Program-made: the position numbers and the translations under genes
DNA from: a virus
IMG/VR virus record: IMGVR_UViG_3300013131_000146
Coordinates: 1-32,049 of that record
Strand: one strand, 5' to 3'
Length of the DNA stretch: 32,049 nt
Shown: positions 253 through 22,673 of the stretch, piece after piece
Layout of the letters: the number at the start of each line of letters is the position of its first letter
How positions within the stretch are numbered: the stretch's first letter is position 1
Notes under the pieces: model-generated
Databases searched by the model: none
What the model saw: only the letters and a program-made list of their open reading frames with translations
Told to the model about the DNA's origin: nothing

Positions 253-270
253 AGATGGCGAAAGCCATCT
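253..270 (+). promoter_or_regulatory. GAAA-loop hairpin downstream of VR (DGR target-site cruciform)
   Basis: The arms AGATGGC (253-259) and GCCATCT (264-270) are a perfect 7-bp inverted repeat around a GAAA loop (260-263). It starts one base after the stop codon of the target gene and 18 bases after the VR end. In the Bordetella phage BPP-1 DGR, a hairpin/cruciform with a GAAA loop just after VR is needed for efficient retrohoming; the match here in form and place is seen directly, the function is inferred. TR has no such GAAA hairpin after it. Confidence 0.85.
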
Positions 271-21506: not shown

Positions 21507-22649
21507 ATGGCTAATATTTTAACCAATCTAGCTGCGGACTTATACAAAGCAGCCGACGTTGTAGGTCGTGAACTTACAGGCGTTATTTCAAGCGCAACTA
21601 TCAATGGCGATGCAAGCGACCGTGTAGCATTGAATGATGTGGTACGTTCACACTTCACACGTGCAGCTACAGCAGTTGATAACGCACCTTCTATGACTAT
21701 CCCAGAAGGTACAGACCAAACTGTTGACAGTAAAACATTGTCAATCACTAAATCTCGTGGCGTTCAAATCCCATGGACAGGTGAGGACATCCGTCATGTA
21801 AACAATGGCGCAGGTTTTGAAACTATTTATGGCGACCAAATCCGTCAAGCGATGCGTACATTGGCTAACGAAATCGAAGTGGACTTAGCAACTGCTGCTT
21901 ATGTAGGTGCTTCTCGTGCTTATGGTACTGCTGGCACTACTCCATTTGCATCAAACTTCAACGATGTTGCTGAATTGCGTAAAATCTTGGTTGACAATGG
22001 CGCACCAATGACAGATGTGACAATGGTATTGAACACTGCTGCTGGCACTAAATTGCGTAACTTGGCTCAATTGCAAAAAGCAAACGAAAATGGCTCAGGC
22101 CAACTATTGCGTAATGGCGTATTGCTAGACTTGCAAGGCATTATGCTTAAAGAGTCTGCTGGCATTCAATTGCCTGCTGTTGGTACAGGTGCAAGCTATC
22201 AAGTGAACAACGCTTCTGGTTACGCTGTTGGCGCAACTACAATCGCGCTTGATACTGGTTCAGGCACTATCTTGGCTGGTGACATCATCACTTTTGCTGG
22301 TGACACTAACAAATACGTTGTTGCTACTGCATTGACAGGCGGTAACGTAGTATTGGCTGCACCTGGCTTGCGTCAAACTCTTGCTGACAATGTTGCAGTA
22401 ACAGTGACAGCAGCTTCTACTCGTAACGTTGTATTCCATCGCAATGCTTTGGAATTGGCAATCCGCGCACCAGCGATGCCAGCAGGTGGCGATGCAGCAG
22501 TAGATGCAATGACAATCCAAGACCCATATTCAGGTCTTGTGTTTGAAGTGCGTGCATATAAAGGCTTCCAAAAAGCAATGTTTAACGTATCCGCAGCATG
22601 GGGTACTAAACTATGGAAACCAGAATTTGCAGCAGTGTTGTTAGGCTAA
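21507..22649 (+). CDS. Major capsid protein, P22 coat-protein type
   Basis: The 380-aa protein starts MANILTNLAADLYKAADVVGRELTGVI and goes on with ASDRVALNDVVRSHF, the beginning of the P22 Gp5 coat family (HK97 fold). Residues about 228-310 are a beta-rich stretch (NNASGYAVGATTIALDTGSGTILAGDIITFAGDTNKYVV) that may be an inserted domain, as P22 coat has its I-domain. The end (YSGLVFEVRAYKGFQKAMFNVSAAWGTKLWKPEFAAVLLG) is typical. AAAGGA lies upstream. It should be the most abundant virion protein; codons are noticeably uniform. Confidence 0.93.
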   Translation: MANILTNLAADLYKAADVVGRELTGVISSATINGDASDRVALNDVVRSHFTRAATAVDNAPSMTIPEGTDQTVDSKTLSITKSRGVQIPWTGEDIRHVNNGAGFETIYGDQIRQAMRTLANEIEVDLATAAYVGASRAYGTAGTTPFASNFNDVAELRKILVDNGAPMTDVTMVLNTAAGTKLRNLAQLQKANENGSGQLLRNGVLLDLQGIMLKESAGIQLPAVGTGASYQVNNASGYAVGATTIALDTGSGTILAGDIITFAGDTNKYVVATALTGGNVVLAAPGLRQTLADNVAVTVTAASTRNVVFHRNALELAIRAPAMPAGGDAAVDAMTIQDPYSGLVFEVRAYKGFQKAMFNVSAAWGTKLWKPEFAAVLLG

Positions 22650-22655
22650 ACCAAA

Positions 22656-22673
22656 GGCGGGGGAAACCCCGCC
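22656..22673 (+). promoter_or_regulatory. GAAA-tetraloop hairpin after the capsid gene
   Basis: GGCGGGG (22656-22662) and CCCCGCC (22667-22673) form a perfect 7-bp GC stem with a GAAA loop, seven bases after the capsid stop. No T run follows, so it more likely protects the capsid mRNA end or slows read-through than ends transcription. Confidence 0.7.

Follow-up and report, generated by a model that had tools for sequence, protein, structure and literature searches.

Conservation, stem covariation and strand asymmetry of the hairpin behind VR in a BPP-1-like DGR cassette

The DGR cassette of the window

The window analysed here is the full stretch of the virus record IMGVR_UViG_3300013131_000146 (32,049 bases), which starts inside the target gene of a DGR. 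The 3′ part of this gene, open at the window start, occupies positions 1-252 in the list of open reading frames, contains VR (116-234, delimited by alignment to TR) and ends with a TAG stop codon at 250-252; its segment of 83 aa gave no match in Pfam. All further features of the cassette lie on the same plus strand. Behind VR are two CTTG units at 237-240 and 244-247 with a spacing of 7 (the YYTG array, 237-247, recognized from sequence, array statistics and codon choice), followed by the hairpin that is the subject of this study (253-270, supported by sequence, DNA fold and covariation), the motif GAAGGG (272-277), a possible avd Shine-Dalgarno seen in the sequence but not conserved in relatives, and avd itself (283-657, ATG at 283; Pfam PF22296 bAvd, E 4e-27). 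TR, paired with VR, follows at 660-778, the TR-RT spacer matches the Phage_DGR RNA (793-922; Rfam RF03022, 84.7 bits, E 1.4e-14), and the DGR reverse transcriptase (RT) is encoded at 923-1906 (PF00078, E 4.9e-22).

VR and TR differ by 14 mismatches, 14 of 14 at TR adenines and 0 elsewhere, and a search of both strands of the window found no second VR. The aligned RT carries IGSLTSQ and YMDD, the two motifs of the DGR RT signature ((I/V/L)GxxxSQ and YxDD; PMC3521204), and is thus of the DGR type. Both avd and the DGR RNA are located between VR and RT, as in BPP-1-type DGRs, and in a comparison that matched the RT to 156 phage records, BPP-1 and its kin came out on top (55.6% identity to BPP-1 Brt). 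By its sequence, the cassette is a BPP-1-type DGR.

The hairpin and its counterpart in BPP-1

The hairpin is formed by AGATGGC (253-259), GAAA (260-263) and GCCATCT (264-270). Its perfect 7-bp stem, with four G-C pairs out of seven, and its 4-nt loop directly abut the stop codon and start 18 nt past the VR end, just as a first, sequence-only reading had described. A DNA fold of positions 235-300 returned the hairpin as the centroid (-7.2 kcal/mol), with a minimum-energy z-score of -2.59. Perfect hairpins of at least 7 bp with a 4-nt loop number three in the 32-kb window and 3.25 on average in 20 shuffles, and given this lack of excess the claim could not rest on the sequence alone; for a GNNA-loop hairpin just 3′ of VR, we estimate from the shuffle rate a chance of about 0.0005 per 80 nt. 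It is the comparative evidence, conservation and covariation in relatives, that decides the reality of the hairpin. Elsewhere in the window, GGCGGGG-GAAA-CCCCGCC at 22656-22673 lies just 3′ of the stop of the ORF at 21507-22649; it is closed by G-C and has neither a T-run nor a VR nearby.

The target role of such a hairpin has already been published (Guo et al., 2011; PMC3240598), and the window is an ordinary further case. According to the passages of that work, the hairpin is required by experiment for efficient BPP-1 homing, in accord with the need of BPP-1 for a GAAA-loop hairpin near VR that the sequence-only reading had named; the structure of the stem counts and its sequence does not, loop sequence and loop size both matter, and a swap of four G-C pairs to A-T strongly lowers function. 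Deletion of the hairpin impairs homing in E. coli as well (PMC12875486). The BPP-1 sequence reads TAG-cggggcc-GAAA-ggccccg and then avd, which puts its hairpin in the same place as that of the window, and the two share the location between the stop of the VR gene and avd, the GAAA loop, a perfect stem that is free to covary, the C-G closing pair and the cassette order VR-avd-TR-RT. They differ in the stem, which in BPP-1 is 8 bp long and all G-C; the less GC-rich stem of the window counts against a target role, since the G-C to A-T swap weakened function in BPP-1.

For other phage DGRs, stems of 7-10 bp, GRNA loops and distances of 4-34 bp after VR are given (PMC3240598); the window hairpin lies inside both ranges, and its GAAA on the sense strand fits the loop rule. 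VHML-like and other phage DGRs (Figure 5 of Guo et al., 2011; Vibrio phage VP58.5 is L010 of our survey) resemble the window in the GNNA loop, the C-G closing pair and the location behind VR, whereas their hairpins lie farther from VR and have mainly GATA, GGTA or GGCA loops, often with several TCTG units between VR and hairpin. Archaeal DGRs likewise have a stem-loop behind VR, but with GRA triloops (3 nt) and within the target gene (PMC4372165); L094 of our survey resembles these. Group IIC introns, as described in PMC3240598, are similar in that RT-linked targeting takes place beside a DNA stem-loop, but there the loop sequence is of little weight and the stem-loops are terminators with T-runs, which the window hairpin lacks. 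The passages of PMC10743442 concern protein beta-hairpins, not a DNA target hairpin.

Conservation and covariation among close relatives

We collected 487 sequences around DGR RTs, the window included, from viral scans, a genome scan and named phages. A TR/VR pair was obtained in 413 of these, and the 412 with an RT of at least 230 aa were clustered at 90% RT identity (RT90), which gave 265 clusters, each represented by one VR; clustering also removed the duplicates that arose where different scans had fetched the same contig repeatedly. Part of the data had already been seen when we settled on the hairpin rules and the YYTG pattern, and the controls (post-TR and pre-VR sequence, reverse complements and shuffles) were scored under identical rules. 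Close relatives are the 59 RT90 clusters with an RT at least 54% identical to that of the window.

A GNNA-loop hairpin is found behind VR in 58 of the 59 close-relative clusters: 49 have at least five Watson-Crick pairs, four a tandem G·A, four one mismatch and one a stem of four pairs. Together with the homologous place in BPP-1, this upholds the view that the hairpin is a conserved target feature. In an ungapped alignment of the 58 relatives (54 distinct rows), 86.0% of stem cells in the distinct rows are paired versus 59.5% in shuffles, 77 stem cells are changed on both sides versus 22.3, and the stem covariation score is 0.528 versus 0.105, a value reached in 0 of 500 shuffles; slid structures, used as a control, are only 27-51% paired. 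The stem is thus kept as a structure rather than as a sequence, in line with the criterion of Guo et al. (2011). The C-G closing pair is invariant among the 58 relatives, and the loop varies within GNNA. The earlier expectation of stem covariation with a constant GAAA loop therefore held for the stem and failed for the loop, where the rule is GNNA.

Some observations count against the reading as a target hairpin. Relatives without any hairpin, named beforehand as a sign against it, amount to one of the 59 clusters: L341 (RT 60%) lacks a comparable hairpin despite a VR that departs from TR at 19 adenines. L099, the closest relative recovered by the viral scan (RT 73%), has just four Watson-Crick pairs in its stem, and the G·A stems described below are predicted to be weak. 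With position, homology to BPP-1, loop rule, stem covariation and attachment to VR all observed, we consider it very probable, by homology, that the window hairpin serves as the target-recognition hairpin of a BPP-1-type DGR. The contrary notion of a chance hairpin or a transcription terminator could draw on the window-wide count, which equals that of shuffles, but chance is refuted by the conservation and covariation at this place; a terminator here would have avd, TR and RT all downstream, and neither a terminator-like site nor a T-run after the stem was found in positions 1-1000 of the window. We regard its probability as practically negligible.

Hairpins across DGR loci

Under a broad rule, which accepts 4-nt-loop hairpins scoring 6 or more, a hairpin is present after VR in 195 of the 265 clusters (173 with GNNA loops, one with TNNC), as compared with 127/264 after TR (16 GNNA) and 174/795 shuffles (5 GNNA, 9 TNNC). 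GNNA hairpins with at least five Watson-Crick pairs occur in 146/265 clusters after VR, 13/264 after TR, 1/257 before VR and 19/2650 shuffles. A stricter rule divides the 265 clusters into class I (146), tandem G·A class II (25), one-mismatch stems (13), 4-bp stems (12) and none (69), where the reverse complement of the same stretch yields 4, 0, 3, 1 and 257, respectively; relaxing the rule for G·A stems leaves 60 of the 265 without a GNNA hairpin. Of 184 hairpins in this survey, 178 are closed by C-G, and the commonest loops of GNNA hairpins after VR are GATA, GAAA and GGTA. The RNA-side hairpins after TR often have CAAG, TACG or CACG loops, unlike the GNNA loops after VR.

Strand asymmetry and G·A stems

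Loops of the hairpins after VR are highly asymmetric, with 173 GNNA against a single TNNC. A similar imbalance is evident for single internal mismatches in the GNNA hairpins, where G·T outnumbers A·C by 26 to 3 in RT90 clusters, which are not independent in this count, and by 17 to 3 in RT70 clusters; without the GNNA restriction, the 195 hairpins contain 34 G·T, 11 A·C, 23 G·A and 6 T·C mismatches. As a G·T mismatch appears as A·C on the complementary strand, the fold of the sense strand seems to matter, although a bias of the coding strand towards C-to-T mutation could also account for the G·T excess.

In the class II stems, the two loop-proximal pairs are Watson-Crick, the next two are A·G and G·A, and the outer ones are Watson-Crick again. 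These stems are found in 25/265 clusters (15 RT70 clusters; examples are L034, L036, L021, L258, L108 and L357), with a pyrimidine 5′ of GA in 22 of the 25. Adding stems with a third purine pair (three in L284, L289, L293, L217 and L298) or a single outer pair, stems of the sheared G·A type amount to 34/265 after VR, against 0/265 after TR, 0/265 reverse complements and 1/2650 shuffles. A direct comparison of the two classes is offered by L196, a class I hairpin with the sequence GGCCTCGC-GATA-GCGAGGCC, and L036, a class II hairpin with the sequence GGCCGAGC-GATA-GCGAGGCC, in which the TC of L196 has become GA opposite the same GA; the RT of L036 is 70% identical to that of L309, which shares one contig with L196. 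At least nine changes between the stem classes are needed on a FastTree of the 265 RTs, a quick tree taken irrespective of support values. The predicted DNA stability of class II averages -2.05 kcal/mol versus -9.43 kcal/mol for class I. DNA favours cGNNAg loops, and also tandem 5′-GA-3′ pairs in a Py-GA-Pu setting.

The loop, G·T and G·A asymmetries all suggest that the sense strand is the relevant one, and we infer that the hairpin works as DNA on this strand. Two other possibilities have to be weighed here. The first is a strand-symmetric cruciform in which the hairpins of both strands are equally needed: BPP-1 hairpins extrude on both strands of a supercoiled plasmid (PMC3240598), and the antisense strand of the window hairpin folds as well (DNA fold, -6.7 kcal/mol). 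However, the GNNA to TNNC and G·T to A·C ratios speak against equal roles, as do 25 A·G/G·A doubles at pairs 3-4 against 0 T·C/C·T doubles, given that the complement of a class II stem, the antisense arm, would bear T·C mismatches; such a cruciform appears rather doubtful. The second is a hairpin acting at the RNA level, in mRNA processing or as part of the DGR RNA. Tolerance of G·T and G·A pairs on the sense strand would suit RNA as well as ssDNA, and an RNA fold of 235-300 reaches -17.3 kcal/mol, but pyrimidines occupy the third loop position in 108 of the 173 GNNA loops after VR, contrary to the purine rule of RNA GNRA loops (in GNNA loops after TR this position holds a purine in 14/17). 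Moreover, the sole Rfam match in the window is the known Phage_DGR RNA, which begins at 793 and not at the hairpin, and the BPP-1 data concern target DNA (PMC3240598), so that a role in the transcript is distinctly unlikely.

The YYTG array

Between VR and hairpin, many loci contain an array of [CT][CT]TG units, which we scored at 7-8-nt spacing within -5 to +65 of the VR end. At least two units are present after VR in 207/265 clusters, at least three in 90 and at least four in 64, the arrays reaching up to six units with few above five; arrays of at least two units are seen in 2/265 post-TR, 3/259 pre-VR and 5/265 sequences at +100 to +170, and in 212/2650 shuffles, six of them with three or more units. 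BPP-1-like loci have two units in 56/59. In the BPP-1-like DGR L341/L140 the hairpin is missing and a CCTG/TTTG pair is retained. ATCTG repeats behind VR are frequent in hairpin-less loci (array examples L031, L211 and L255), and other short direct repeats occur behind VR in L084, L053, L055, L069 and L072, among them CCCTTT in a cyanobacterium, GACGG in an archaeon, and CTTGA and ACTCTAA in candidate-phylum bacteria.

The array is coding in BPP-1-like loci (His-Leu-x-Leu; 58 of 59 parsed). In 58/58, the first of the two Leu codons has TG as its last two bases, where 0.48 is expected from RT codon use, and the second is CTT in 55/58, where 0.18 is expected on the same basis with the kinship of the loci uncorrected; this skewed choice of Leu codons is a sign of constraint at the DNA level. 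At the end of VR, BPP-1 has TCTGTGACCACCTGATTCTTG, as against TCTGTGCCCATCACCTTCTTG at the end of TR, a difference by which the CCTG unit is lost in TR. We infer that the YYTG array is part of the IMH. The distance from the last unit to the loop is 11.3 nt (sd 0.6) in 54 BPP-1-like loci, while in 102 others the base of the stem is mostly found 1-5 or 15-20 nt past the last unit, two distances that differ by about two array periods. With a spacing of 7-8 rather than 10-11, the array did not suit a helical-phase reading, which was dropped.

In the passages of the open-access literature searched, we found no account of G·A stems, of sense-strand asymmetry after VR or of a YYTG array after VR, any of which may be known elsewhere; the passages of PMC3521204, PMC4372165, PMC8867640, PMC7290462, PMC4891356, PMC6642488 and PMC11054128 are without them.

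Relation of the hairpin to avd

The window hairpin ends 12 nt before the avd ATG, with GAAGGG in between, and a role in translational control is conceivable, in which the hairpin would act on avd initiation, by coupling or repression, and serve as a target mark only secondarily. An avd-like ORF is present within 250 nt after VR in 248/265 clusters. With avd taken to begin at the first start codon in frame behind the stem, a rough rule, 26 of the 58 relatives have this codon within 6 nt of the stem, and in 6/58 it overlaps the stem end. On the other hand, a Shine-Dalgarno-like motif separates hairpin and avd start in only 7/58, and their distance ranges from -2 to 33 nt; the plausible Shine-Dalgarno bordering the hairpin, pointed out in the sequence-only reading, is present as a sequence in the window and is not conserved among its relatives. 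The hairpin is also kept behind VR where another small gene comes next (L039, L323, L439), and L094 has its VR 3′ of RT, within a long ORF, with a GAA-triloop hairpin behind it. In BPP-1, the hairpin works in cis on the target while avd is supplied in trans (PMC3240598). The suggested coupling of target marking to avd expression did not survive these comparisons, and avd coupling as the main role was dropped on the evidence of the 58 relatives and of the loci with a different gene after VR; we consider it very improbable. The hairpin belongs to VR, not to avd, and its adjacency to the avd start would be a by-product of gene order.

Implications for target recognition

Returning to the target-recognition reading, we suggest the following scenario. 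The antisense cDNA has to pair with the sense strand, which could be exposed by supercoiling, replication or transcription; the exposed 3′ flank of VR would then form a DNA-type cGNNAg hairpin beside the IMH/YYTG array, and the folded hairpin may hold the site open or dock the RT-Avd-cDNA complex. The cDNA would thereby enter VR and not TR, which as a rule is without both marks. The route by which mutagenized cDNA enters the target is described as still open (PMC12875486), where editing is better with the cDNA-complementary strand as lagging-strand template and the stem-loop is proposed to prolong the open state of the target, both of which fit a sense-strand mechanism; an inverted BPP-1 target homes normally (PMC3240598), and the replication-strand preference is thus not absolute.

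A more specific proposal, to which we give an even chance, is a two-part code in sense-strand ssDNA: a YYTG array with a period of 7-8 nt, which would be the working core of the IMH, set in register with a cGNNAg hairpin whose stem may be either Watson-Crick or of a tandem, sheared-type G·A form available to the sense strand only. Binding of the array could proceed unit by unit, with the Avd ring as one candidate.

The window contributes a naturally occurring, close BPP-1 relative whose stem differs, and the comparative set sharpens the statement that a hairpin is needed: it predicts that G·A stems would work on the sense strand and not on the antisense strand, and that breaking the 7-nt YYTG spacing with the protein unchanged would impair homing. 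This would provide a better-defined minimal tag for programmable DGR targets.
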